From contig NZ_JADDUE010000004.1 in assembly GCF_016526145.1 (NCBI RefSeq), positions 1-64,000 on the forward strand: a DNA stretch of 64,000 nt, read 5' to 3'. The translations under genes were made by a program, and so were the position numbers. How positions within the stretch are numbered: position 1 is the first letter of the stretch; each line of letters begins with the position of its first letter. Below are positions 46,944 through 64,000 of this stretch, in pieces. The notes under the pieces were generated by a model. That model was given only the letters and a program-made list of their open reading frames with translations, did not search any database and was not told the DNA's origin. The DNA comes from Saccharopolyspora galaxeae (GTDB taxonomy: Bacteria; Actinomycetota; Actinomycetes; Mycobacteriales; Pseudonocardiaceae).

Positions 46944-47858
46944 TCACAGCGCGAGGAACTTCCGGATCGACTCGTTCAGGCCCGTGGGGCTCAGCCCGTG
47001 CGCGGCCTCGTGCTCCTCGGCCGTGCCGTAGGCGCGCAGCTCGGGCTCGCGCCGCACGCCCAGCGCGAGCAGCCGGTGCGGCACATCGGGCAGCGCGTCA
47101 CCGACGGCGTGGCTGGACGTGCCGCTCAGGTACGGCTCGACCAGCACGACGTCCGGCGTCGAAGCCAGCGCCGCCGCCCGCAGGCCCGCGGAGTCGAACG
47201 GCCGGATGGTCGCCGCGTAAAGCACCGTGACGTCCATCAAGGCGGTGGCCGCGAGCACCGGCCGCAACATCGGTCCCACCGCGAGCACAACGCCTCCCCC
47301 GCCCTGGCGGACCACGCGGAACCCGGGGCCGGTGGGCAGCGCCTCGTCGTTCTCCCGCTCGGTCAGCCGCAGGTAGACGCGGTCGTCCCCGCGCAGCGCA
47401 GCGGGCAGCAGCTCGGCGACCTCCTGCGGATGCCCGGGAACGTGCACGGTCCAGTCCGGCAGGGTGTCGATCAGCGCCACATCGCCCGGGCCCATGTGCG
47501 TGCGGCCCGCGTCCGGGTAGTCGTAGGAAGCGCCCGTGCTCACCAGCAACGCCCCGCTGCCCTGGTGGTTGATGTCCAGCTTGAGCTGCTCGAACGGCCG
47601 CTCCAGCAGGAACGGCGTGATCGTGTGCAGCACGGGGCGCATCCCGGCCAGCGCCAGCCCACCGGCCACGCCGACCATCGCCTGCTCGCGGATGCCCACG
47701 TTGAGCACCCGGTCCGGATGGCGTTCGGCTGCTTCGGTGAAGCGGTCCATGGAGATGTCGGCCAGCACCACGGCCAGTCGGGGATCGCGCTCCAGGGCCG
47801 TGCTCACCACGTCGGTGAACACCTCGCGCATCGTCTTGGGCGGCATCGTGCGGGCCAT
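46944..47858 (-). CDS. Transketolase, C-terminal subunit (split type)
   Basis: A 304-residue protein covering the pyrimidine-binding and C-terminal domains of transketolase. RLAVVLADISMDRFTEAAER, then RVLNVGIREQAMVGVAGGLA with the conserved glutamate that activates thiamine diphosphate, and GASYDYPDAGRTHMGPGDVA are visible. GFRVVRQGGGGVVLAVGPML begins the last domain. It needs the product of the adjacent N-terminal-half gene, whose stop is only 3 bases upstream. The substrate may be pentose phosphates or a secondary-metabolism analogue. Confidence 0.88.
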   Translation of the reverse strand: MARTMPPKTMREVFTDVVSTALERDPRLAVVLADISMDRFTEAAERHPDRVLNVGIREQAMVGVAGGLALAGMRPVLHTITPFLLERPFEQLKLDINHQGSGALLVSTGASYDYPDAGRTHMGPGDVALIDTLPDWTVHVPGHPQEVAELLPAALRGDDRVYLRLTERENDEALPTGPGFRVVRQGGGGVVLAVGPMLRPVLAATALMDVTVLYAATIRPFDSAGLRAAALASTPDVVLVEPYLSGTSSHAVGDALPDVPHRLLALGVRREPELRAYGTAEEHEAAHGLSPTGLNESIRKFLAL

Positions 47859-47861
47859 CAG

Positions 47862-48557
47862 TCAGTACTCCTTCGCTTCGACGCGGGCGATCACCGCGAG
47901 CGGGCGGTCCGGGCGGGTGTCGGTGAGCGCGGCGTGCAGCGCCTCGTGGTCCCGGCCGTCGACGGAACGCGCGGCCCAGCCTTCGCCCGCGAAGCGCTGT
48001 TCGATGCCACCCGGCCAGCCGTAGGACGACGAGGAGTTGTCGACCACGACGGTGGTGAGGTTGCCGAGCCCCCGGCGGCCCGCCACGGCGATGGCTTCGT
48101 GGTTGCTGCCCTCGTCGAGCTCGGCGTCGCCGACGAGCACGACCACGCGCGGCCCGGTGCGCCCCTGGGCGCGCAATCCCAGCGCCGTGCCCAGCGCCAG
48201 CGGTAGCCCGTGCCCGAGCGAGCCGCTGCCGATCTCCACGCCGGGCGCCAGCACGCGGTCCGGGTGGAAGCCGAGCGGAGAGTCGAACCGGCCCCAGCGG
48301 TCCAGCTCCGCCGGATCGAGGATGCCCTTGGCGGCGAGCACCGCGTAGTAGGCCATCGGGCCGTGGCCCTTCGACAGCAGGAAGCGGTCGCGCTCGGGGT
48401 GGTCGATGAGCTCCGGGCCGATCGCCAGCACCCGGTCGTAGAGCACCCACAGCACGTCCAATGTCGAGGTGGCCGCCGGCGAGTGCTTCTCGTCCCCGGC
48501 CATCCGCCCGATCAGATCGGGCAGGTCGGCGTAGCCGAATTCGGTCGCAGTAGTCAT
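47862..48557 (-). CDS. Transketolase, N-terminal subunit (split type)
   Basis: A 231-residue thiamine-diphosphate-binding domain. DRFLLSKGHGPMAYYAVLAA, GSGSLGHGLPLALGTALGLR and VVVLVGDAELDEGSNHEAIA (metal/ThDP motif, where the usual G-D-G-E is G-D-A-E), then LTTVVVDNSSSSYGWPGGIE, are seen. It is short compared with archaeal-type TktA (about 270 residues), and the missing length is near the C-terminus. ATG 48557 lies about 10 bases after a TATCAG -10, so the mRNA is probably nearly leaderless. A palindrome overlaps the -35. Confidence 0.87.
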   Translation of the reverse strand: MTTATEFGYADLPDLIGRMAGDEKHSPAATSTLDVLWVLYDRVLAIGPELIDHPERDRFLLSKGHGPMAYYAVLAAKGILDPAELDRWGRFDSPLGFHPDRVLAPGVEIGSGSLGHGLPLALGTALGLRAQGRTGPRVVVLVGDAELDEGSNHEAIAVAGRRGLGNLTTVVVDNSSSSYGWPGGIEQRFAGEGWAARSVDGRDHEALHAALTDTRPDRPLAVIARVEAKEY

Positions 48558-48816: not shown

Positions 48817-50409
48817 ATGCCCCGCGCCTTCCCCGGAACTGCCGCGATCCTCGCGCTGACGACGACGGCGATGCTGTGCACCGCGGCGCCCGCATCCGCG
48901 GGCCGGACGCACACCCGGCTCGTGGAGATCGCCGCGCACGACGGCACTCCGCTGGTAGCCGCGGTCTGCGAACCGGCCGACCCCGGACCGCACCCGGCCG
49001 CGGTGCTCGTGGCCGCTTGGGGCGGCGGAAGCACGCAGAACATCGTGCCGTGCGAGAACTTCGCCGCCCGCGGGTACGTCGCGGTTTCCTACGGCACCAG
49101 GGGATTCGGCGAATCCGGCGGCCAGGTCGAGGTCGGCGGGCCGGACGACGTCGCCGACGTCTCCGACGTGATCGACTGGACGCTGGCCAACACCGATTCC
49201 GATCCGGCGCGGATCGGCGTGGGCGGGATCTCCTACGGCGCCGGGATCGGTCTGCTCGCCTCGGCCTCCGACCCGCGGATTCGGGCGGTGGCGTCGATGA
49301 GCGGGTGGGCGGACCTGGTCGAGTCGCTGTTCGGCAACCGCACCAGGCGCGCTGCGGTGGCCACGGTGCTGCGGATCTCCGGCGAGAAGGACGGCGACCT
49401 CTCCCCCGAGACCCGGGAGATGCTCACCAAGTACATGTCCGGCGAGGACCGGGAACGCGTGACCGAATGGTCGCGAGTCCGCTCACCTTCCTCCTATGTG
49501 GACGGAATCAACGCGAACCGCCCCGCGGTGCTGATGCTCAACACCTGGAGCGAGACGGTGTTCCCGCCCGCGCAGCTCGCCGAGTTCCAGCACAGGCTGC
49601 GCACCCCGAACCGGCTGGAGCTGATCCCCGGCGAACACGCCGCGGCCGAGACCAGCGGACTGCTCGGGCTGCCCAACGACGCCTGGAACGACACCTACCA
49701 GTGGTTCGACACGCACCTGCGCGGCGCGCCCGCGCCACCGAGCGCGCCGGTCGTGCTGCAGCCCAGAGGTGCCACCGACCGGCCGCGCGAGCAGTACCCG
49801 GACTGGAGCGCGATCAGCGACCGGACCGAACGGTTCTTCCTCTCCGGCGAGGAAGAACTCACCGCCGACGAACCCGCGGACTGGTCCCGGACCATCCGAA
49901 GTGGACGCGACACGGTGGCGAACGGCGGTGTCCCGCTGGTGACCTACACGCTGGAAGCGCTGACCGGGAACCCGCCGACCGCGTTCCTGCCCGCCGTCGA
50001 CCCCGCCGCGGGCGCCAAGTGGACCAGCCCGCCGCTACCGGAACCCCGCGTGTTGCGAGGAAGTCCGCACCTGCGGATGAGCGCGGTACCGCCGGCCCCG
50101 AACGGCATGCTGGTCGCCTACCTCTACGACGTGGACGCCACCGGCACCGGACGGATGATCTCGTACGTGCCGTACTCGTGGGAGAACGCCAAGCCCGGCG
50201 AACCGATCACAGTGGACACCGACCTCCCGCCCACCGCTTACGACGTGCCCGCCGGGCACCGGCTCAGCTTGGTGGTCGACACCGAGGACCCGCTGTACTT
50301 CCTGGACGACAACCCGCCCAACGCACCGCTGACCTTGCAGAACCCGCCGGCGCTGGAGGGCCCGGCGACGCTGGACCTGGCGCTGCAGGACGGAAAGGAG
50401 CAACCGTGA
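48817..50409 (+). CDS. Secreted CocE/NonD-family alpha/beta hydrolase
   Basis: A 530-residue exported hydrolase. The signal peptide is [21 protein letters not shown]. The N-terminal X-Pro dipeptidyl-peptidase-like fold has [36 protein letters not shown] (nucleophile GxSxG) and [11 protein letters not shown] (candidate histidine). The C-terminal part is the jelly-roll domain of this family ([20 protein letters not shown], then [17 protein letters not shown]). Substrates range from esters to amides and cannot be predicted. ATG 48817 follows GAAAGG. The stop overlaps the R2lox start by 4 bases, so the two are co-translated. Confidence 0.87.
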
Positions 50410-51356
50410 CCACCACCGAACACCGGCCGGGCGGTACCCGGATCAACCCGGACTCGCTGCCGTACCGGTTGTGGCACAAGGGACATCGCAAGTTCTGGGA
50501 CCCCGCAGCGATCGACTTCTCGCAGGACGCCCGGGACTGGCAGCAGCTGACCGACCGCCAGCGGTTCGCCGCGACGCTGCTGTGCGCGCAGTTCATCGGC
50601 GGCGAAGAGGCCGTGACCGAGGACATCCGCCCGTTCGTGCAAGCGATGGTGGCCGAGGGGCGCCGCGCCGACGAGCTCTACCTGAGCCAGTTCATGTTCG
50701 AGGAAGCCAAGCACACCCAGGGTTTCCGCCGCTGGCTCGACGCGGTCGGCGTGCAGCAGGACCTGCACCCGCACGTCGCGGACAACCCCGGCTACCGCGC
50801 GATCTTCTACGAGGCGCTGCCGGAGGCGCTGCACGCGCTGTCGGCCGATCCGAGCCCGGCGAACCAGGTGCGCGCGTCGGTCACCTACAACCACCTGGTC
50901 GAAGGCGTGCTCGCGCTGACCGGCTACTTCCTGTGGAACAGCACGTGCGAGCGCTTCGGCATCCTGCCGGGGATGCGCGAGCTGATCCGGCGGATCAGCG
51001 AGGACGAGCGCAGGCACATGGCGTGGGGAACGTTCACCTGCCGCAGGCACGTCGCCGCCGACGACTCGACCTGGGAGGTGGTGACCGAGCGGATGGACAC
51101 GCTGCTGCCGCACGCGATCGGCCAGATCGAGCACGCCCTCGGGCGGTTGGAGGGCGATCCGTTCGAGATGCGCATCGAGGGGCTTTTCGAGTACGCGGCC
51201 GACCGCGCCGCCCGGCGGATCAAGGCGATCGAGTCGGCCCGCGGGGTCCCGGTGGAGCGGATCGACGTGGACCAGGCGCCGGAGCGGCTGGAGGAGGAGT
51301 TCGGGCGGGAGGACGAAGCCGCGTTGCGCGAGGAGGCTTCCGCGGAAAACAATTAG
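50406..51356 (+). CDS. R2-like ligand-binding oxidase (Mn/Fe ferritin-like)
   Basis: A 316-residue protein closely following Mycobacterium Rv0233. The metal ligands are all present: E67 ([12 protein letters not shown]), E100 and H103 ([12 protein letters not shown]), E166 ([10 protein letters not shown]), and E201 and H204 ([12 protein letters not shown]). The Val70 and Tyr161 pair that forms the ether cross-link in characterised R2lox enzymes is also conserved. These proteins bind a long-chain fatty-acid ligand at a Mn/Fe cofactor and probably carry out two-electron oxidations; the substrate is unknown. GTG 50406 overlaps the hydrolase stop. It is not a ribonucleotide reductase subunit, since the radical tyrosine context and C-terminal tail of R2 are missing. 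Confidence 0.93.
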
Positions 51357-51445
51357 ACGAATATCTTTCACGTTGCCTGCGCTCTACTTACTTTCGTATT
51401 CACTCGAATTGACGGTTGGATGCTGCGCGGAAGATCACTAAAGTC

Positions 51446-51461
51446 CCTACTCGCGAGTAGG
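51446..51461. promoter_or_regulatory. Perfect 16-bp palindrome CCTACTCGCGAGTAGG
   Basis: A perfect palindrome without spacer, 96 bases before the PucR-type gene. ACTCGCGAGT cores of this type are typical TetR-family operators in actinobacteria. A TTGACG (51409–51414) lies 31 bases upstream and could be a -35, which would put the palindrome at or just after the transcription start. Confidence 0.65.
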
Positions 51462-51556
51462 TAGATGTTCGGCGGCGCACATCTCCCCCGAGCCGGACTC
51501 CCGGTCCCCGAGCAGGACTCCCGGACACGGCGCCGCTCCGGCACGGAAAGAGAGCC

Positions 51557-52873
51557 ATGCTGACGACGGCGAATCATTCCCAGGCGGCAACTCCCGACTC
51601 GGCCGATCCCAAGGCCCCCGGACTGTGGGCGGCGTTGCCGAGCGACCTCGCGCCCATCCTGCGGCCCGAACTGCGCAGCCTCGCGGCGCAGATCCTGGAG
51701 GAGATCCAACGCCGGATCCCCGAATACGCGCGGCCGATGGATCACAACTACGTGCACGCCATCCACCGCGGCGTCGAAGAGGCGCTGAGCCAATTCGTCG
51801 ACCAGATCGCCGACCCCACCGCCCCGCAGGAACGCTGCGCCGAAGTGCACCGCGCCCTCGGCAAGGCGGAAATGCACGAAGGGCGCAGTTTGGACAGCTT
51901 GCAGGCCGCCTACCGGCTCGGTGCGCGGCTCGCGTGGCGGCGCCTCGCGCGGATCGGCGAACGCGCCCGGGCCGCGCCGCGAACGATGCTGCTGCTCGGC
52001 GAAGCCATCTACGCGCACATCGACGAGCTCGCCGCGCTGTCGGTGGAGGGCTACGCCGAAGCCCAAGCCCGCGCGGCGGGCACGCAGGCGCGCAGGCGGC
52101 GCAGGCTGCTGGAACTGCTGCTGTCGGATCCGCAGCCACCGCAACAGATCCTGGAAGAGACCGCATCGGCGGCGCAGTGGCCGCTGCCCGGCAAGGTCGT
52201 GGTCGCCGCGCTGGAACGCTCCGAACAGCAAGAGCCGCACACCAACCCGCTGGCCCGCTGGGAGGCGCTGGTCGACCTGGAATGCGCCCAGCCGCACCTG
52301 CTGGTGCCGTGCACCCAGGACGAGCCGCACGACCTGCCGTGGAACGACCAGCTCGCCGGCTGGCGCGTGGTGATCGCACCACCGGTGGAGATCCGGCAAG
52401 CGCCGCACGCGCTGCGCTGGGCGCGGCGGCTGCTGGAACTGGCGGGCAACGGCGTGGTGCCCAACCGGCCGGTGTTGCGCTGCCGGGACCACCTCTCGAG
52501 CCTGCTGCTGCTCAGCGACGAGAACCTCACCCAGGAGATCGTGCACACCCGGCTGGCGCCACTGGAGAAGCTCAAGGCCAAGCAGCAGGTGCGGCTGGCG
52601 GAAACGCTGCTGGCATGGCTGCAAACCCGCGGCGGCGCACCGGAAGTGGCGCAACGGCTGCAAGTGCACCCGCAGACCGTGCGATACCGGATGCACCAGC
52701 TCGAAGACCTCTTCGGCGAAGACCTGAACGACCCGCAGGCCCGCTTCGAGCTGGAGGTGGCGCTGCGCGCCGCGGGACGGTTGCTGCCGTACGGGGCGCT
52801 GCGCGGCGAAACGGTCGACAAGCCGACCGAACCCCTGCGCAAACCCGAAGATCCGGAGGGCGGAGTCACGTGA
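51557..52873 (+). CDS. PucR/CdaR-type transcriptional regulator
   Basis: A 438-residue regulator. The N-terminal sensory region has IPEYARPMDHNYVHAIHRGV, then HRALGKAEMHEGRSLDSLQA and AYRLGARLAWRRLARIGERA, as found in the RsbRD-like/PucR family of actinomycetes. The C-terminal HTH_30 has LAETLLAWLQTRGGAPEVAQ, then RLQVHPQTVRYRMHQLEDLF. This is the standard PucR DNA-binding module. ATG 51557 follows AAAGAGAG. The GTGA overlap with the DHA2 exporter gene shows co-translation and suggests it controls that exporter. Confidence 0.9.
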   Translation: MLTTANHSQAATPDSADPKAPGLWAALPSDLAPILRPELRSLAAQILEEIQRRIPEYARPMDHNYVHAIHRGVEEALSQFVDQIADPTAPQERCAEVHRALGKAEMHEGRSLDSLQAAYRLGARLAWRRLARIGERARAAPRTMLLLGEAIYAHIDELAALSVEGYAEAQARAAGTQARRRRRLLELLLSDPQPPQQILEETASAAQWPLPGKVVVAALERSEQQEPHTNPLARWEALVDLECAQPHLLVPCTQDEPHDLPWNDQLAGWRVVIAPPVEIRQAPHALRWARRLLELAGNGVVPNRPVLRCRDHLSSLLLLSDENLTQEIVHTRLAPLEKLKAKQQVRLAETLLAWLQTRGGAPEVAQRLQVHPQTVRYRMHQLEDLFGEDLNDPQARFELEVALRAAGRLLPYGALRGETVDKPTEPLRKPEDPEGGVT

Positions 52874-54321
52874 GCGACGCGATGCAGGCCCCTGTCCGCC
52901 AGGCGCCGGTGTTGCTCGCGCTGGGACTGGCCGGGTTCGTGACCGCGCTGGACAACAACATCGTCAACGTCGCGCTGCCGACCGTGCAGGCGGAGTTGGG
53001 GGCCACGGTCCCGCAGCTGGAATGGATCGTCAGCGGCTACGTGCTGGCGTTCGCGAGCCTGCTCATCATCGGTGGGCGACTGGCGGACCTGGCGGGGCGC
53101 AGGCGGATTCTGCAGCTCGGGCTGGCGGCGCTGATCGTCACCTCGGTCACGGCCGGGTTCGCCGAGACCGCGCCGGTGCTGATCGCGGTGCGCTTCGCGC
53201 AAGGCGCATCGGCCGCGCTGGTGATGCCCGCCGCGCTGGCCGTGCTGGCCGCCGACATCACTCCGGCGCGGCGCGAGCTGGCCGCCGGGATCTGGACGGC
53301 GTCGCTGGCGGTGGCGCTGGCGCTGGGGCCGGTCGTCGGCGGTGTGCTCACCGAACACCTGCACTGGAGCTGGATCTTCTTCCTGCACCTGCCCGCCGGG
53401 CTGCTGACGATGGCGCTGGTGTGGTGGGGACTTCCGGACGTGCGGCCGGAACCGATGCCGTTGCGGCACTTGGACCCCGGGGGGCTGGCACTGTCCACAG
53501 TGGTGCTCGCGGCGGGCAGTTTCGCGCTGGTGGAGGGCCAGAGCATCGGGTTCGGCCAGCCGATCATCATCGCGGCCGGAGCGGTGACGCTGGCGGCGAT
53601 TCCGGTGCTGGTCGCGGTGGAGCGGCGCGCCGCCGAACCGATGTTGCACCTTTCCCTGGTGCGCAACAAGGTCTTCGGCGGCGGCACGATCGCGCAGGTG
53701 CTGTGGGGCGTGGGGGTCAACGGGACGCTGCTCTACACCTCGTTGTTCCTGCAGGACGTGCTCGAACTCTCGCCCAGCGCGGCCGGAATGGTCTTCGTGC
53801 CACTGGCCGGGCTGCTCGTGCTGTGCGTACCGTTCGTGCCGCCGCTGAGCGCGCGGTTCGGCGCGCGGTGGACGGTGACCGCCGGAATGGTGCTGGTAGC
53901 GCTGGGATTGTGGCTGCTGGCCGGTTCCGGGCCCGGCACCACGGTGGCGGCGTTGATGCCCGGGCTGCTGTCGATCGGCGTCGGCTCGGCGTTGATCACC
54001 CCGTTGACCTCCGAAGTGCTCGGCGCAGTACCGACCGGCAGCGCGGGCGTGGCCTCGGCGATGATCAGCGCCGCGCGGGAGGCGTCCGGAGTGCTCGGGA
54101 TCGCCGTCGTGGGCGTGGTGCTTTCGTTGACCAGCGACGCCGCATCGGCATCGGGCGCGGCGGCCGACGCCGCCTACTCCGCCGGTTACTCCGCGGGAAT
54201 GCGGTTGGCCGCCGGGTTGGTGCTGCTAGGGGCGTTGGCCACGGCGTTCGCGCTGGCTCCGGCCAAGCCGAGGCGGTCGGCGAACATCGGCCAAGAGCGG
54301 TGCAACTCCCGTTCCCAATAA
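52870..54321 (+). CDS. MFS drug/metabolite exporter, DHA2 (EmrB/QacA) family
   Basis: A 483-residue membrane transporter with 12–14 helices. Motif D1 is LGLAGFVTALDNNIVNVALP, and motif A is SLLIIGGRLADLAGRRRILQ. PALAVLAADITPARRELAAG and LALGPVVGGVLTEHLHWSWI (motif C) follow. These efflux pumps export cationic or amphipathic compounds using proton motive force. GTG 52870 overlaps the PucR gene by GTGA. The last 45 codons are antisense to the Ag85-like esterase gene (136-base tail-to-tail overlap). It could export the product of the neighbouring PKS locus, but this is only positional inference. Confidence 0.88.
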   Translation: MSDAMQAPVRQAPVLLALGLAGFVTALDNNIVNVALPTVQAELGATVPQLEWIVSGYVLAFASLLIIGGRLADLAGRRRILQLGLAALIVTSVTAGFAETAPVLIAVRFAQGASAALVMPAALAVLAADITPARRELAAGIWTASLAVALALGPVVGGVLTEHLHWSWIFFLHLPAGLLTMALVWWGLPDVRPEPMPLRHLDPGGLALSTVVLAAGSFALVEGQSIGFGQPIIIAAGAVTLAAIPVLVAVERRAAEPMLHLSLVRNKVFGGGTIAQVLWGVGVNGTLLYTSLFLQDVLELSPSAAGMVFVPLAGLLVLCVPFVPPLSARFGARWTVTAGMVLVALGLWLLAGSGPGTTVAALMPGLLSIGVGSALITPLTSEVLGAVPTGSAGVASAMISAAREASGVLGIAVVGVVLSLTSDAASASGAAADAAYSAGYSAGMRLAAGLVLLGALATAFALAPAKPRRSANIGQERCNSRSQ

Positions 54322-55304
54322 GGCCAATCGTGCCTACCGGCACCGTAATAGTGCTCGGTGACCGCGATTCCCATCGCCTTCAGGCGCGAAGTCATCGCCA
54401 GCGAAGTCGACAGCGCCGACGGCTCCAGCGAATCCGGTAGCGCCCCCGGAGCGTCCAGCGGGCCGGGCAGGCCGTTGCCGCAGGAGACGTAGAGCGCGGT
54501 GCCGCGCAGCTGTTCGGCGTGGTCGAAGGGATTTCGCGCGGACCAGGTGGGGTGGTCCAGCACGGCACTGCCCCACATCGCCAGCGGGTCCTCCCCCTCG
54601 CGCACCAGAATTCCCTGCACCACACCGGGAACGCCGGGCTGCAGGGTGTTCAGCAGTCCACTGTAGGAGGCCGCGGCGCGGAACATGCCGGGGTGGCGGA
54701 AGGCGTAGGCGAAGGAGCCGTAGCCGCCGACGGACAGGCCGGCGACCGCTCGGCGGTCCCCGGCGCCGTAGTCGCGCTCCAAGATTCCGCGCAGTTCGCT
54801 CAGGTGGAACGACTCCCAGTCCGGTTCACCACCGGCCCACCTGGTGTAGAAGCCGGCCGGGCCACCACTGGGAATCACGGTGAGCACGTCCTTGTCCGAC
54901 ATGAACCGCTGCACGTCGGTGAAATTCGTCCACGCCCGGTAATCCGCGTCCTCGCAGCAGCCGTGCAACAGGTAGAGCACCGGCCAAGTGCGGTCCGGAT
55001 GCTTCTTCCAGCCGCGCGGCAGCAGCAGGCGGACGGGTGCGCTGGTGCCCAGAGCGGGCGAATAGATCAGCAGGTCGAGGGTGCGCGCGTCGAGCCGGTT
55101 CTCCTGCAGGACACTGGGTTCGGCGGCAGGATTTGGTGCGGTGGCAGGACCGGGTTCGGCGGCGCCGGATTTCGCAGCACCGGCCACTTCGGACGACGCG
55201 CCGACGACGGCCTCGGCGGGTGGCGTCGAGGCCCCCGTCGAGACCGCCAGGGCGCCCACCATCGACATGGTCAGCGACGCGCGCCACCACCGTCCACTGT
55301 TCAT
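54186..55304 (-). CDS. Secreted Ag85/esterase-D-type alpha/beta hydrolase
   Basis: A 372-residue exported protein. The signal segment is ASLTMSMVGALAVSTGASTP. An Ala/Pro-rich linker of about 40 residues precedes the catalytic domain, with LLLPRGWKKHPDRTWPVLYL, LHGCCEDADYRAW, DWESFHLSELRGILERDYGA, then VAGLSVGGYGSFAYAFRHPG (nucleophile S191). The candidate histidine is in GAGRHDWPYWERELHRSW. This is the antigen 85 / mycolyltransferase-related esterase family. Placed directly after FAAL–PKS–AccD it may transfer or hydrolyse the PKS product at the cell surface. ATG 55304 has GAAAGG upstream. The last 20 or so residues (ANAVANAPSSTNPAANRIPA) lie beyond the fold and are antisense to the exporter gene. 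Confidence 0.85.
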   Translation of the reverse strand: MNSGRWWRASLTMSMVGALAVSTGASTPPAEAVVGASSEVAGAAKSGAAEPGPATAPNPAAEPSVLQENRLDARTLDLLIYSPALGTSAPVRLLLPRGWKKHPDRTWPVLYLLHGCCEDADYRAWTNFTDVQRFMSDKDVLTVIPSGGPAGFYTRWAGGEPDWESFHLSELRGILERDYGAGDRRAVAGLSVGGYGSFAYAFRHPGMFRAAASYSGLLNTLQPGVPGVVQGILVREGEDPLAMWGSAVLDHPTWSARNPFDHAEQLRGTALYVSCGNGLPGPLDAPGALPDSLEPSALSTSLAMTSRLKAMGIAVTEHYYGAGRHDWPYWERELHRSWPMFADRLGLAGASANAVANAPSSTNPAANRIPAE

Positions 55305-55353
55305 TTGTCGTGCCTTTCGTGCTCGAGCTGGTGCTGGGACCACGTCCGGTCCT

Positions 55354-56910
55354 TCAGAGCGGCATGGTCGAGTGCTTCTTGGGCGGCGTTTCCTGCCGCT
55401 TGTTCGCCAGCACCCGCAAGGCGCGCACCAAGTGCTCGCGCGTGGTGGAGGGCTGGATGACGGCGTCTACGTAGCCGCGCTCGGCCGCGATGTAGGGAGT
55501 GGCCAATGTGGACCGGTATTCCTCGATCAGCTTGGCCCGCACGGCTTCCTCGGTACCGTTGGCCGCGGCCTCGGCCAGTTCCCGCCGGTGCAGCAGGCTC
55601 ACCGCGCCGGAGGCGCCCATCACCGCGATCTCCGCGGTCGGCCACGCGAGGTTCACGTCCGCTCCGAGGTGCTTGGAACCCATCACCGCGTAACCACCGC
55701 CGTACGCTTTGCGCACCACGACGGTCACCTTCGGGACGGTCGCCTCCGAGTACGCGTAGATCAGCTTCGCGCCGCGGCGGATGATGCCGTGGCGCTCCTG
55801 CTCGACACCCGGCAGGTAGCCGGGAACGTCGGCGAAGGTCAGCAGCGGCAGCCCGAAAGCGTCGCAGAACCGCACGAACCTGGCGGCCTTCTCGGAGGCG
55901 TCGATGTCGATGGTGCCCGCGTTCTGCGACGGCTGGTTGGCCACCACCCCGACGCTGCGGCCCTCGACCCGGCCGAACGCGCAGATCATGCTGCGCCCGA
56001 AAAGCGGCTGCACTTCGAGGAAATCGCCGTCGTCGAGGACGAGTTCGAGCACGCGGTGCATGTCGTAGCCCTGGTGCGGCTCGTCCGGCACCAGCACGTC
56101 CAGTTCTCCGGCCGCCCCCACGTCCGAAGCGGACTCGTATTGCGGAGCGCTGTCCAGGTTGTTCGCGGGCAGGTAGCCGAGCAACGTCCGCGCCCAGTCG
56201 ATGGCGTCGGCCTCGTCCTCTGCCAAGTGGTGGGCGTTGCCGGAGATTTCGCTGTTCGTCCGGGCACCGCCCAGCTCCTCCGCATCGGCCTGCGCACCGG
56301 TCACCGACCGCACCACCTCCGGACCGGTGACGAACATGTGCGAGGTTTTCCGCACCATGACGGTGAAATCGGTGATCGCGGGCGAATACACCGCCCCGCC
56401 CGCACACGGTCCCATGATCAACGACAGCTGCGGGATGACACCGGAAGCCAGCGAGTTCCGCCTGCCCAGCTCGGCGTAGTACGCCAGCGAGACCACGCCC
56501 TCCTGGATGCGCGCACCGCCGGAGTCGTTGATGCCCACCACCGGGCAGCCGATCTTCATCGCCAGGTCCATCACCTTCAGGACCTTCTCCCCGAACGCTT
56601 CGCCCATGCTGCCGCCGAAAACGGTGAAGTCCTGCGCGAAGACGCACACCGGGCGCCCGTCGACCGTGCCGTGGCCGGTTACCACCCCGTCGCCGTACGG
56701 TCGCTGGTCGTCGGTTCCGTAGGAGCCACCGCGGTGCCGGGCGAGTTCGTCCAGCTCGACGAAGGAGTCCTCGTCCAGCAGCAGGTGGATGCGCTCGCGC
56801 GCGGTGAGCTTGCCCTTGGCGTGCTGCTTGCCCCGGGCACGCGCATCGGCGTCGTGCACCGCGGTGTCGTGCCGCCGCTGCAACGCCTGGATCCGTTCCG
56901 CGGTTGTCAT
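55354..56910 (-). CDS. Acyl-CoA carboxylase carboxyltransferase (beta) subunit, AccD4-like position
   Basis: A 518-residue carboxyltransferase that makes an alpha-carboxyacyl-CoA extender from a biotinylated alpha-subunit, which is not encoded nearby. LTARERIHLLLDEDSFVELD is the N-terminus. GINDSGGARIQEGVVSLAYY and MGPCAGGAVYSPAITDFTVM form the first oxyanion hole. DVPGYLPGVEQERHGIIRRG and RKAYGGGYAVMGSKHLGADV form the second half. The specificity position that is Asp422 in Streptomyces PccB is Ala408 here, which suggests an acyl group other than propionyl. ATG 56910 overlaps the PKS stop by ATGA, so it is co-translated with the PKS. Confidence 0.92.
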   Translation of the reverse strand: MTTAERIQALQRRHDTAVHDADARARGKQHAKGKLTARERIHLLLDEDSFVELDELARHRGGSYGTDDQRPYGDGVVTGHGTVDGRPVCVFAQDFTVFGGSMGEAFGEKVLKVMDLAMKIGCPVVGINDSGGARIQEGVVSLAYYAELGRRNSLASGVIPQLSLIMGPCAGGAVYSPAITDFTVMVRKTSHMFVTGPEVVRSVTGAQADAEELGGARTNSEISGNAHHLAEDEADAIDWARTLLGYLPANNLDSAPQYESASDVGAAGELDVLVPDEPHQGYDMHRVLELVLDDGDFLEVQPLFGRSMICAFGRVEGRSVGVVANQPSQNAGTIDIDASEKAARFVRFCDAFGLPLLTFADVPGYLPGVEQERHGIIRRGAKLIYAYSEATVPKVTVVVRKAYGGGYAVMGSKHLGADVNLAWPTAEIAVMGASGAVSLLHRRELAEAAANGTEEAVRAKLIEEYRSTLATPYIAAERGYVDAVIQPSTTREHLVRALRVLANKRQETPPKKHSTMPL

Positions 56911-59900
56911 GCGCCCTCCCTGGTGAGTGCGGACGTGCCGAGTACACCCGCGAGGTGCGCCGCGATGACGTCCACGTTCGGCGGGTCGATCATGGACAGG
57001 TGGTCGCCGGGTATCCGCACCACTTCCGGAGCGGCCACGATCTCGTCCCACCCGAGCGCCTCGTCGGTGCGCAGGTAGCGCGGGTCCAATGTGGTCGTGG
57101 TGGTTTCGGCCTCCTGCGCTCGGTACAGCAGCACCCGCCCGTCGAACGGTCCGGGCTGATAGCGCTCCGCGATCCTTGCGTCCACATAGGACGTGTACTG
57201 GTGGTGCAGGACGCCTGCTCCCATGTCGATGTCCGCTCCCGACAGCGCACCGAGCACACGGCGCATCTGCTCGTCTTCGTCCAACCCCTGGAGCTCGGTC
57301 GAGCGCACCTGCAGCGCGACGCCGTAAGTCGACTCGATGTGCTCGGCGAACCGGTCGAACCGGCGCAGCACGAGCTGTTCGGACGTGGCGCCGTCCGGTG
57401 CGGGCAACGGGAGAATGGTGTCGATCAGCGCGACGAACTCGACCGGCTCGCCGAGCTCGGTGAGCCGGCGCGCGGTCTCGTAGGCGAGACATCCGCCGAA
57501 GGACCATCCGCCGAGGCGGTAGGGCCCGTGCGGCTGGAGTTCGCGTACCAGGTCCGCGTACCGCTGCGCCTTGGCCTCGACGGAGTCCAGGTCGTCGAGC
57601 CGTTCCAGGCCGTAGCACGGCTGGTCGGCACCTAGGCTCGCCACCAGCGGCTGGTAAACGCTGGTCGGGCCGCCTGCCGGGTGGAAGAGGAACAACGGGC
57701 GCCCAGTTCCCGTCGTGCGCAGCGCGCGCACCGGGCCGTCGGTTCCTTCGAAGCGCTGCCGCAGCAGATCCGCCATCCCCGACACCGTCGGGGTGCCGAA
57801 CAACTCCTCCGTAGTGTCCGATGAGGACAGTCGTTCGCGAATCCCGCGGGCCACGACGTCGGCTTGCTCCCGCGTCCCACCGAGGTCGTAGAAGTCCTCG
57901 GCGACGCCGAACTCGACCGGGCCCAGTGCCTCGGCCCACAGATGTGCGATCCACCGCTCGGTCGCGTCCCGCGGGCCGATGCGTGCCGACTCGACGACCT
58001 CCGCAACGGTCCCGAGGCCCAGCTGTTCGGCCAGGTGCCGGGCGATGTCGTGCAGGCTCGCCCCGCGCAGCAGCAGCGCGGGAGGGACCGCCACGCCGAA
58101 GTCGCGTTCGACTGCGTTCCGCGCCCGGGTCGCCATCAGCGAGTCGAGCCCCAGCATCGTCAGCGGCGCGGCCGGGTCGAGGTTTTCCGCCGAGCCGCCG
58201 AGGATTCCCGCGACCTCCGACCTGAGATGCCCGGTGATCGATTCGACGGCTTCGGCGGGCCGGTCGCGCGGCAGCGAGTCGACATCGAACCGGCCCGCCG
58301 TCTTCGGCTCCGCGGTGACGACCGCATCGAAGAGCGGACGGGAGCAAAGTTGCGGGAAATACTCCGCAGCGCGCGCCGCGTCGAGCCGCGCCACACCGGT
58401 CGCAGTGCGCCCGGAGGCCAGCACCGCCTCCAACGCTTCGACGCCTTCGGCAGGGGTGAGCTGGTCGATCACCCGCGCGAGCGGGGACTCCGCCGCACCG
58501 CCGACGTCCGCCCAAAGTCCCCAATGGATGGTCGTGGCAGGAAGTCCGCGCGCACGGCGCAACCTGGCGAGATCGTCGGTCCAGGCGTTCGCGGTGGCGT
58601 AGGCGGCCTGTCCGGGAGATCCCAGCAGGGCAGCCGCGGAGGAGAACACCACCCACCAGTCCAGCTCGTGGTCAACCGTGGCCTCGTGCATCCGCCAAGC
58701 GGTGCGCGCCTTCGACCGCCACACCTGCTCGATCGCGTGCTCGTCGAGATCCGCCACGAGACCGTCGCGCAACGCACCTGCGGCGTTCACGACACCGCGC
58801 AACGCCATGCCGTTCTCCGTGGCCGCAGCGACGAGCTGCGCTGCGACGTCCGCAGTGGACACATCGCCGGTCACCACCCGGATCTCGGCACCCTCGGCCT
58901 CGATTTCGGCGAGTTCGCGGGCGACCGCCGCGGACGGTTCACCCCGGCCGTTGAGCACGATGCGCTGCGCCCCGCGCTCGGCGAGCCATCTCGCGACCGT
59001 GCGGCCCAAGCCGCCAAGTCCGCCTGTCACCACGTAGGCAGCCGGACGAACGACCTGATCGGTGCGGATCCGCCCCAACTCGGCGCGGTGCAGCCGCGCC
59101 ACTTCACGATGTTCGCCGCGACGCCGGACCTCGTCGTCCGGAGCATCGGCGACGAGCTCCGCGGCCGCCGATGCCGTTCCGTCCGTGACCAGCATGCTCA
59201 CCCGCAGTTCCGGGTGCTCGAACGCGAGCACCCGCACGAGCGCCCGCAAGCCCCAATCAGCACCGGAATCATCCGATGTGGACAACCACAACCGGATGTT
59301 CAGATCACGCCGGGACATTTCTCGCACGACGGCCGACGCGTGCAGCACGTGCTCCGCTCGCTCGGTCGAATCCGGGGAATCCGCCGGGAAAACGAGCACG
59401 ACACCGCGCGGCGGGAGGCTTTCGTCATCGACGACCACGTCGAGCCCGGACTCGGGCCGGTGGAGGTCGCCGCGCACCGCCCGCTGGCCGGCGTCCCGCA
59501 ATGCCGACACGAGGTCGTCGTCTTCGCCCAGGACCAGCCAGCTGCCTGCTTGCGCCGTGCCCGGCTCGGCCAGGTCCGCCGAATCCCAGCGCAGCTCCAG
59601 AAAAGCTTCGTCCAGTGGACGCGGCGGGGGCGCGAGCCCGCGAGCGCGGATCTCGGCGACCTCCAGCGCCGGCACGCCTTCGCCATCGGTGACCAGCAGC
59701 GAACCGATCGGTTCCGGGCCACCGGTGTGCAACCGCGCGTAGCAGCGGACCTGCTCGGGAAGCTGGCCGAGCTGGCGCACTCCCGCCAAAGCGACCGGCA
59801 CACCGATCCCGGCTTCCGGGGCGCCGTCCCCGAGTCCCGCGGCCAGCAGACTTTGCAGGCACGCGTCCACCAATGCGGGATGTGCCGCGAACATCTCGGC

Positions 59901-62900
59901 ATCGGCGGCCTGCTCCGGCAACGCGACCTCGGCCACCGCGAGGCCACCACGGGCACGTGCGGAACGCACCCCGCGGAAAGCCGGCCCGTAATGCTGACCG
60001 GCCGCACGCAACGCCGAATACAGATCGACCTCGGAACCGTCCACCTCGGACTTCTCGAGTCCGGATCGAGTCCCGCTGCGGACGAGGGTTGCCGTGGCAT
60101 GGCAGGTCCATCTGCCGGTGACCGATCGCGAGTGCACCTCGACACGCCCGGTACCGGACTCGTCCGGCGTGAACGTGGTCGTGACGGGCACGTTGTCCGC
60201 CAGCAGCAGCACTTGGTGCAACTCGAGCGATTCTAGGCGCAATGCCCCGAGGTCGGCGTCCCACGCCTGCGCACCTGCCGCGAACGCGATCTCCAGGTAG
60301 GCACTGCCGGGCAGCACCGGAGTGTCCTGCACCTTGTGATCGGCTAGCCAGGGCAAAGCTTCTGTTCCGACGTCGCCGCGCCACGCGCTTGCGCCGCCCG
60401 GCAGATCGACTCGCAGGCCCAGCAGTGGATGTCCGGCCGGATCAGGTGCGGAACGTGTTGCGACCCAATGGGATTCGTGCTGCCACGCGGCCGGCGGCAC
60501 ATCCACGAGACGACCTTTCCGATACCCGGTGACCGGTATGCGGCCGTTCGTGTGCAGCTCGGCGAGGGCCGTGTGGAAGGTTTCGGTTCCATCCGTCCCG
60601 CGGCGGCCGGTGAACGCCGCCACCGGACGGGAAACTCCCGCCTCCGCCAGGGTCTCCTCGATCGCCGTGGTGGCGACCGGGTGCGGGGCCAGCTCGGCGA
60701 AAGTGCCGAAACCGGCCTCCGCTGCGGCGCGCACGGCCTGCTCGAACCGCACGGGGTTGCGCAGGTTGCGGACCCAGTAGTCGGCGTCGAACGCGGGGAC
60801 CGAGCCAGGATCCGCCGTGCTGAACACCATTGTGGACGTTTCCCGGGGGGCGATCCCGGAGAGCTCCTCGCGCAACCGCGCCAGCACCCCGTCCACGGCA
60901 GCGCTGTGCCCGGCGCCGGACACGCCGAGCAGGCGAGCACTGCGGCCCGCGCGCTCGAAGTGCGTCACCAGCAGCTGCACCTCGTCGGAGGGCCCGGTGA
61001 CCGTGCACCGGACCGGGGACGCGTGCACCGCCACGTCCACCCCGGGGAAAAGCTCCGCCAACGCCTCCACTTCCGCGGCCGACGCTTCCACGGCCGCCAT
61101 CGCGCCGTTTCCCGCCGTGTCCACTTCGGACAGCAGTCGGGAGCGCGCGGACATCACACGCAGCCCGTCGCTCTCGTCGAGCGCTCCCGTGGCGACGGCC
61201 GCGGCCACTTCACCCAGCGAATGCCCGATCACCGCAGCAGGTTCGACACCGTAGGCGCGCCACAGCTCGGCATAGGCGACCTGCAGTCCGAACAGGACCA
61301 GCTGCGTCCGGTGCACATCACCGAGATCGTCCTGCCCGCTCAACACCGCGCGCAGGGAGAACCCGCACTGCCGCAGGTATTCCGGGTCGAGCCGGTCGAC
61401 CGCCGCGGCGAACGCGGGCTCGTCGGCCAGCAGCTCGCGGCCCATTCCGGCCCACTGCGAGCCGTATCCGGAGAACACCCACACGATCCCCTTGTCACGC
61501 GTGGTCACCCTGCCCCGGACGCCGCCGGATCCGGCGGCGAGCGCACGGAGGCCGTCGAGCACGCCGTCCCTGCCACGAGCCACCACGGCAGCCCGCTCGG
61601 GATGCTGCTCCCGCCGGTGCGCCAAGGTGTGCCCGATGTCGGCCAGGCCGGCAGCACGCCCCTCGGGCGTTGCCATCCACTCCGCCAGGTCCGCGGCCGC
61701 GCGAAGCATCCGCTGCTCGGTGATTCCGGAGACGACGAAGGATTGCACGCCATCGCCGTCCGGGCTCCGGCGCCGCGAAGGCATCCGCCGCCACGCCTCC
61801 AGGACGACGTGCGCGTTGGTGCCGCCGAAACCGAACCCGGAGACCCCCGCACGCGCCACACCCGAGTACTTCGGCCAGTTCCGCGCCGCACCGACCACTT
61901 CCAGCCCGGACTGCTCGAACGGGATGTGCGGGTTCGGCTCCCGGTAGTGCAAGCTCGCGGGTAGCGAGCCGTGCCGCATCGACAGCACGACCTTGATCAA
62001 TCCCGCGATTCCCGCAGCGGCCTCCAGGTGCCCGAGGTTCGTCTTGACCGATCCCAGCAGCAGCGGCCGCTGCGCGGGCCGCCCGCGGGCCAGCACCGAG
62101 CGCAGGCCCTCCGCTTCGATCGGGTCGCCGAGCAACGTGCCCGTCCCGTGCGCTTCGACGTAGTCCACAACGGACGGATCGAGGTCCGCACCTGCGTAAG
62201 CACTACGCAGCAAGTCCGCCTGCGCCACCGGATTCGGCGCCATCAGGCCGTTGGACCTGCCGTCCGAGTTGACCGCCGAGCCCCGCACGACCGCCAGGAT
62301 CCGGTCGCCGTCGCGGTTCGCATCGGAGAGTCGTTTGAGCACGACGACACCGCAGCCTTCACCGCGCACGATGCCATCGGCGGAAGCGTCGAAAGCCTTG
62401 CACCGACCGTCGTCCGACAACGCTCCGGCACGATCGAAGTTCGCCGTGATCGCCGGCGACAGCAGCAGGTTCACACCGCCGGCCAGCGCGACCCGGCTCT
62501 CGCCCGACCGCAGGCTCGCGCACGCCTGGTGCACCGCCACCAGCGAGGACGAGCACGCCGTGTCGATCGCGGAACTCGGCCCCCGCAGGTCCAGGAAGTA
62601 CGACAACCTGTTGGCCACAATGGACAGTGCTGCGCCGGTTCCGGTCCACGCGTCCACCGCTCGCAGATCGCGCGTGGTCAACGCGCCGTACTCGGTGGAC
62701 GAAACCCCGACGAACACGCCGGTCGCGCTGCCGCGCAACGCCGAAGGCACCACGCCCGCGTGTTCCAGGGCCTCCCACGCAACCTCCAGCAGCAGCCGCT
62801 GCTGCGGGTCCATGACCGCGGCTTCGGTGGGCGAGATCTCGAAGAACTCCGCGTCGAACTCGTCCACTCCGTCCAGGAACCCGCCTGCCTTGGGCAGTTT

Positions 62901-63359
62901 GGACAGCGCGGGGTCCGCCCCGGAGAACCTCTCCCAGCGCCCCTCGGGGACCACGCCGACACCGCTGGCACCGGACTCCAGCAGCTCCCAGTAGCGGCGC
63001 GGTCCCCGGGCTCCCCCTGGGAAGCGGCAGCCCACGCCTACCACCGCAACGGGTTCGTCCGGCTCCGATTTTCGCGGGCGGGGGAACGGATCCGGCGACT
63101 CGTCGGCGCCGTCGGACCCGTCCGGTTGCGCCGCCAACGCCGCGGAAAGCCGGTCGATGGTCGGGTGCTCCCACAGCAGCGTCGGAGGCAACCGCTGCCC
63201 GACGATGTCCTGCACCCGCCCGGCCAGCTCCACCGCGTCCCGCGAGGACAACCCGAACTCCTGGAACGGGCGCCCGGTGTCCACCGAACCCGGGGGCAGC
63301 CCGAGCCGTCCGGCGACGTGCTGCGCCAACCAGTCCGCCCACTCCGCGCGATCACGCAT
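56907..63359 (-). CDS. Pks13-like type I polyketide synthase: ACP-KS-AT-DH-KR-ACP-(inactive carrier)-TE
   Basis: A 2150-residue megasynthase. Domains in order: N-terminal ACP (1–75) with [10 protein letters not shown], Ser39, the Pks13-type loading carrier. KS (about 100–520): C269 in DTACSSS, H404 in EAHGTGT, H444 in NLGHLEA. AT (about 625–910): GHSLGEV with S714 and the unusual specificity motif GAGH (815–818). DH (about 975–1245): H1008 ([12 protein letters not shown]) and D1165 (DACLQ). KR (about 1440–1610): [10 protein letters not shown]1574, Y1587, N1591. ACP2 (1705–1780): LGLDS, S1740. A carrier-like domain (1795–1872) with LGGTREQ has Arg1830 where serine is required. TE (1885–2150): GWSFGG S1953, H2120. 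ATG 63359 overlaps the FAAL stop by 8 bases. No ER. Expected reaction: condensation of a FAAL-loaded fatty acyl chain with a carboxyacyl extender, then reduction (and possible dehydration), then TE release. Confidence 0.93.
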
Positions 63360-64000
63360 GATCGGCCTCCAAGTAGCGCTCGCGGCACAACCGGCGGGCG
63401 ACCTTGCCGCTCGACGTGCGCGGAACGGTGTCCGGTTCCACCAGCACGAGATCGCTGAGCAGCACACCGTGCTCGGCCGAGACCGCCGAGCGCACCGCAC
63501 TGGTGATCTCCGCGGGGTCGCGGTCGGACGCGGCGACGCGCCTGCCGTACTCGGCCACGACGACCAACCGCTCACCTTCGGCCGCGCTGATCGCGAAAGC
63601 GGCGGTGTGGTGCTTGCGCACCGCCGGGTGCGCCTGCTCCACGGTCAGCTCCACGTCCTGCGGGTAGTGGTTGCGGCCGTCGATGATGATCACGTCCTTC
63701 ATCCGGCCGGTGACGAACAGCTCGCCGCCGTCCAGCACACCGAGGTCGCCGGTGCGCAGCCAGCCGTCCGCGGGCAGCTCACCCGCGCCTACCGGTTCGG
63801 CGTCTGCCAGCTCGACGCCAAAGGTGTCCTGCTCGTCCCGGCCCCAGTAGCCCTGGCCGGTGTTCGGGCCGTGCACCCAGATCTCGCCCACGCCGCCGTC
63901 GGGCAGCACGGTGTGCGAGTCCGGGTCGACCACCGCGACCCGCTGTCCCACCGGGCGGCCGCAGGAGACCAGGTCGCTGACCGCCTCAGTCCCCTGCGGT
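63352..64000 (-). CDS. Fatty-acyl-AMP ligase, FadD32-like (C-terminal part; 5' end outside window)
   Basis: The visible 215 codons run off the right edge. CGRPVGQRVAVVDPDSHTVL, then GGVGEIWVHGPNTGQGYWGR, are the adenylation core. GWLRTGDLGVLDGGELFVTG is the hinge, and GRMKDVIIIDGRNHYPQDVE is the FAAL-type C-terminal lid (GRNHYPQDI/V). PRTSSGKVARRLCRERY carries the late catalytic lysine. FAALs activate fatty acids as adenylates and pass them directly to an ACP, here presumably Ser39 of the PKS. The FAAL-specific insertion lies outside the window. The stop overlaps the PKS start by 8 bases. Confidence 0.92.
   Translation of the reverse strand, partial: PQGTEAVSDLVSCGRPVGQRVAVVDPDSHTVLPDGGVGEIWVHGPNTGQGYWGRDEQDTFGVELADAEPVGAGELPADGWLRTGDLGVLDGGELFVTGRMKDVIIIDGRNHYPQDVELTVEQAHPAVRKHHTAAFAISAAEGERLVVVAEYGRRVAASDRDPAEITSAVRSAVSAEHGVLLSDLVLVEPDTVPRTSSGKVARRLCRERYLEADHA

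Follow-up and report, generated by a model that had tools for sequence, protein, structure and literature searches.

The window, which is the whole 64,000-nucleotide stretch of DNA analysed here, carries a gene pair encoding a secreted CocE/NonD-family hydrolase and an R2-like ligand-binding oxidase (R2lox) within a nine-gene cluster. The cluster is conserved, its R2lox falls into a single clade, and the domain architecture of the encoded proteins could be read directly together with their active-site motifs, which are intact. On balance, we consider it probable that the pair supplies the tailoring steps of a conserved cluster for mycolate-like lipids, in which R2lox would oxidise a long-chain acyl unit and secreted esterases would act on the exported product.

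The hydrolase and R2lox genes

The hydrolase gene (48817–50409, forward strand) encodes 530 amino acids and scored 93.5 bits against TIGR00976 (cut-off 66.3), with PF02129 and PF08530 also matching. Its N-terminus, read by eye, has an apparent Sec signal peptide ending in ..APASA, and its putative catalytic triad consists of Ser in GxSYGAG, Glu in WSETVF and His in PGEHA; triad-like residues were kept in all paired copies. The best PDB matches, the CocE/NonD entries 8yzn and 8yzo (named 'Lipase'), are homologous to the window hydrolase over nearly its whole length and have the Ser and His of the triad in common with it, whereas their acid residue is Asp and that of every paired CocE copy is Glu.

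The R2lox gene (50406–51356, forward strand; 316 amino acids) begins with a GTG from 50406 and the hydrolase ends with a TGA at 50407–50409, giving the GTGA start/stop overlap (50406–50409, forward strand) that the original prediction had claimed. Across 15 paired loci, the distance between the two genes ranged from −4 to +51 bp. On the reverse strand at 46944–48557, between his genes and the hydrolase, lies a split transketolase-like gene pair that is kept in close relatives (L113–L115).

The R2lox protein scored 500 bits against NCBIfam NF006199 (R2-like ligand-binding oxidase; cut-off 286) and matched the structures 7qbp (E = 7e-131), 3ee4 (E = 9e-116) and 4ac8; its AlphaFold (AF2) model had a pLDDT of 89, with R2lox structures as the best Foldseek matches. 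The six metal ligands (E67, E100, H103, E166, E201 and H204) were all invariant in 15 paired and 79 unpaired sequences, and also in a 28-sequence alignment; they correspond to E69, E102, H105, E167, E202 and H205 of Gk R2lox (PMC6060897 numbering). Likewise, V70 (50613–50615) and Y161 (50886–50888), the predicted cross-link pair equivalent to V72/Y162 in the same numbering, and the cavity residue Y174 were invariant in the compared sequences, as had been claimed from the window alone for the ligands and the Val–Tyr pair. The R2lox proteins of M. tuberculosis, S. erythraea and G. kaustophilus (PDB 3ee4/4ac8, 7qbp and 4hr0) have the fold (TM-score 0.8–0.9), the six ligands and the Val–Tyr pair in common with the window protein, which is 58–63% identical to the actinobacterial R2lox of known structure. 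Unlike them, it belongs to a separate clade marked by G65 and V168 and is set in a cluster of fatty acyl-AMP ligase (FAAL) and polyketide synthase (PKS) genes.

These two clade-diagnostic residues separated 15 of 15 paired from 79 of 79 unpaired copies. G65 lies two positions from ligand E67, and V168 lies two from ligand E166 and two from A170, whose Gk equivalent A171 bounds the R2lox ligand channel (PMC4118035). Because both residues are near metal ligands and V168 is near the channel residue, an altered ligand pocket in the paired clade is plausible from the alignment. R2lox proteins co-purify with long-chain fatty acids (PMC6060897), and a review described their physiological function as unknown (PMC4118035), the exception being a later claim that GkR2loxI is an alkane monooxygenase encoded in a catabolic gene cluster (PMC10867098).

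The surrounding cluster

The nine genes encode the CocE hydrolase, R2lox, a PucR regulator, a DHA2 exporter, a PF00756 esterase, an acyl-CoA carboxylase beta subunit, a Pks13-like PKS, a FAAL and a PF03583 lipase, spanning 48817–64000 in the window and continuing to contig position C29:66803, about 2.8 kb past the window end. The coordinates of the original prediction, which covered the pair alone, omit most of the actual unit. Downstream of R2lox on the forward strand are the PucR/CdaR-type regulator (51557–52873; PF13556) and the DHA2/EmrB-type MFS exporter (52870–54321; PF07690, with TIGR00711 just under its cut-off), which showed 40–84% identity across homologous clusters. The reading frames of the exporter and of the antigen 85 (Ag85)-like esterase that follows overlap convergently by 136 bp (54186–54321).

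That secreted PF00756 esterase (54186–55343, reverse strand) belongs to the mycolyltransferase type of antigen 85, PS1 and Cmt1 and contains the motifs GLSVGG and HDWPYW. PS1, Cmt1 and antigen 85 were the nearest solved relatives of the Amycolatopsis copy, and the GxSxGG nucleophile and H[SD]WPYW histidine motifs of the family mark it as a putative mycolyltransferase. The carboxylase beta (carboxyltransferase) subunit (55354–56910, reverse strand; PF01039; PDB 3ibb, E = 4e-232) had PccB/AccD5, rather than the long-chain AccD4, as its closest solved structures; since it resembles the former over the latter, the extender unit of the PKS may be short.

The type I PKS (56907–63359, reverse strand; 2150 amino acids) has the order ACP-KS-AT-DH-KR-ACP-TE, and no ER domain was found in it. 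Its catalytic motifs are intact (DH His and HPALxD, KR GGLGGLG with Ser/Tyr/Asn, C-terminal ACP GLDSL, and TE GWSFGG), with Asp where Gly is usual in the DH motif and an unusual AT specificity motif, AGHS, which is neither of the usual ones. Pks13 itself has the order ACP-KS-AT-ACP-TE, without DH or KR. The Pks13 profile was the best match and Pks13 structures matched first; a plain Pks13 was nevertheless rejected, as the score of 1399 bits fell below the equivalog cut-off of 2100 and the DH and KR domains are extra.

The FadD32-like FAAL gene (63352–64000, reverse strand) has its C-terminal third in the window and extends to C29:65100. Its best profiles were all FAALs (PRK12476, PRK05850 and FadD32; 558–578 bits, all under the curated cut-offs), and the best PDB matches of its S. 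flava homologue were FAALs such as FadD32. The PF03583 secretory lipase (LIP) follows the FAAL outside the window (C29:65640–66803, forward strand). The cluster and the mycobacterial mycolate machinery (FadD32-Pks13-AccD4 and antigen 85) have in common a predicted FAAL, a PKS carrying an ACP at its N-terminus and a TE at its C-terminus, a carboxylase beta subunit and an Ag85-like esterase, but the window cluster differs in the DH and KR domains, in its PccB/AccD5-like carboxylase and in the addition of R2lox and CocE. A further difference is in the hosts: mycolic acids are reported to be absent from Pseudonocardiales (PMC6194230).

Distribution and evolution

We compared R2lox at 110 loci, drawn from 61 relatives and from a survey in which each of 84,980 species was represented by one genome. 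Of the R2lox-related places in the contig scan, at least 567 in number, the 80 best were retained, and about 16 paired genomes were sampled. Among the 110 loci, a hydrolase gene adjoining R2lox was confined to Saccharopolyspora (two groups), Amycolatopsis and Actinokineospora. In a tree of 97 R2lox sequences, the 15 paired copies formed one clade (SH-aLRT 98), all 15 beside CocE, and none of the 82 others adjoined a CocE gene. A search of 297 class-level genomes returned as the sole other adjacency an Actinokineospora genome already counted. We therefore rejected a general R2lox–hydrolase pairing across actinomycetes, the original prediction having proposed to check the conservation of the pair at that breadth. 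The adjacency does recur beyond the source genome, within one R2lox subclade, so that the partner is conserved and, as anticipated, informative.

The window genome itself holds a second R2lox (contig C11:631610–632512, L112), which belongs to the canonical, unpaired set and, like the R2lox of many other actinomycetes, has an acyl-CoA synthetase gene nearby. In the flanking DNA examined at the 70 canonical R2lox loci, no PKS, FAAL or AccD gene was present. An upstream TetR-type gene was seen at 46 of these 70 loci and a downstream acyl-CoA synthetase-like gene at 37, names that were given by sequence appearance and, for the synthetase, also through a Pfam match to the copy in the window genome. 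The idea that canonical R2lox genes share the cluster was accordingly rejected, an MFS gene at four Kribbella-type loci standing without other cluster genes. Further Pseudonocardiaceae R2lox types (L134, L135 and L133; 53–58% and 44% identity) were unlinked to any cluster gene.

Every paired-clade locus with enough flank read lay in a FAAL/PKS cluster. The cluster core recurs in four Pseudonocardiaceae lineages with differing gene order and protein identities of about 40–76%. Of the four lineages with R2lox, three have a PucR relative in the cluster, the Amycolatopsis clusters add MmpL (an MmpL3-like pump), and the stretch read in Actinokineospora contained no PucR, MFS or lipase genes. The paired CocE copies also formed one clade (support 100/100), comprising the 15 paired sequences and one unpaired long branch, with Glu replacing Asp as the putative catalytic acid. 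That branch (L167:8517–10091) stands alone among the CocE of this clade in having no R2lox; it too has Glu at the acid position and lies beside urease-like and unrelated biosynthetic genes.

FAAL relatives (E ≤ 1e-140) occurred in 63, and PF00756 relatives (E ≤ 1e-70) in 69, of 201 Pseudonocardiaceae genomes. FAAL-PKS cassettes without R2lox, often with a PF00756 gene, are widespread in the family and make up most of its cassettes, so R2lox is dispensable for the core pathway; CocE was absent from all 18 R2lox-less FAAL loci read. Among other Pseudonocardiaceae, the loci L137–L154 are Pks13-like/FAAL cassettes without R2lox, mostly with an Ag85-like esterase, and several genomes have two or three such FAALs.

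In both the FAAL and PKS trees, R2lox-bearing cassettes were not monophyletic, well-supported branches forcing at least three label changes, and the window cassette had as its sister group cassettes of genus g62 that lack R2lox. Agreement was weaker for the esterase and the carboxylase, with at least two changes in their trees. Given at least three forced changes, the association does not go back to a single recent descent of the entire cluster; either an ancestral cluster had R2lox and CocE and lost them on several occasions, or the two were transferred between cassettes, and repeated loss or movement of the two together suggests functional coupling either way. With R2lox-less cassettes widespread and R2lox-bearing ones not monophyletic, R2lox and the hydrolase behave as an optional tailoring module.

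Proposed role of the pair

FAALs require free fatty acids. In the pathway that we propose from the cluster content, the FAAL would activate a free long-chain fatty acid and load it onto the N-terminal ACP of the Pks13-like synthase, which would condense the acyl chain with a carboxyacyl extender unit that the AccD-type carboxylase provides. The KR and DH domains would carry out beta-processing, and the TE would release or transfer an alpha-branched product, to be exported by the MFS protein (in Amycolatopsis also by MmpL) and transferred outside the cell by the Ag85-like esterase. R2lox would hydroxylate or desaturate either the free fatty acid before loading or the condensed chain afterwards, and the co-translated CocE and the lipase would act extracellularly on the exported ester; transfer or trimming of the lipid would fall to the exported esterases. 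Free fatty acids are what a FAAL needs and what R2lox proteins bind beside the metal site, so oxidation before loading would be the simplest step; the condensed chain is a possible alternative target. The alkane-monooxygenase claim for GkR2loxI counts against this scheme, as it could point to a different class of substrate.

A more specific version, which we put forward tentatively, is that Pseudonocardiaceae that lack classical mycolic acids produce a separate class of alpha-branched, beta-processed envelope lipid through their own Pks13/FadD32/Ag85-like set, with a dedicated R2lox clade as chain oxidase. Mycolate-like lipid machinery would then be indicated in bacteria classed as mycolic-acid-free, the hosts of the paired clade being the soil actinomycetes Saccharopolyspora, Amycolatopsis and Actinokineospora. 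In the freely readable literature, we found no published link of R2lox to a PKS/FAAL cluster, nor of mycolate-like lipids to Pseudonocardiaceae. If true, the proposal would provide a physiological biosynthetic role for an R2lox, for which we found no precedent; the confinement of one clade to a single biosynthetic cluster narrows the candidate R2lox substrate to the free or condensed long-chain acyl unit of the predicted lipid, which is directly testable.

The product might instead be a secreted alpha-branched lipid (a signal, surfactant or antibiotic) that R2lox tailors, the MFS protein exports and CocE and LIP mature or inactivate. We regard this as unlikely though a serious contender: the PucR regulator and DHA2 exporter, the patchy distribution with repeated gain or loss, and the two secreted hydrolases in three lineages are consistent with it, but an Ag85-like esterase was found at every R2lox-bearing locus with sufficient flank read and in most other cassettes, and this, together with the MmpL3-like pump in Amycolatopsis, points to envelope lipids.

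The original prediction offered two alternatives, of which the one that agrees with the wider cluster is joint action on an envelope lipid. The other, processing outside followed by oxidation inside, would have CocE and LIP cleave external esters and R2lox oxidise the imported acid for catabolism. CocE does appear to be a secreted, hydrolase-like protein, and the GkR2loxI cluster for which alkane oxidation is claimed likewise places R2lox beside lipid genes (PMC10867098). However, those neighbours are catabolic (dehydrogenases and beta-oxidation), whereas the conserved cluster contains no beta-oxidation genes and surrounds R2lox with biosynthetic and export functions (FAAL, Pks13-like PKS, acyl-CoA carboxylase, mycolyltransferase-like esterase and exporter), which makes such scavenging improbable. 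Least probable of all, a single R2lox clade could sit beside the cassette by descent with no role in it, but its adjacency was kept despite differing gene orders, the cassettes are not monophyletic, and the hydrolase and R2lox genes overlap or nearly touch.
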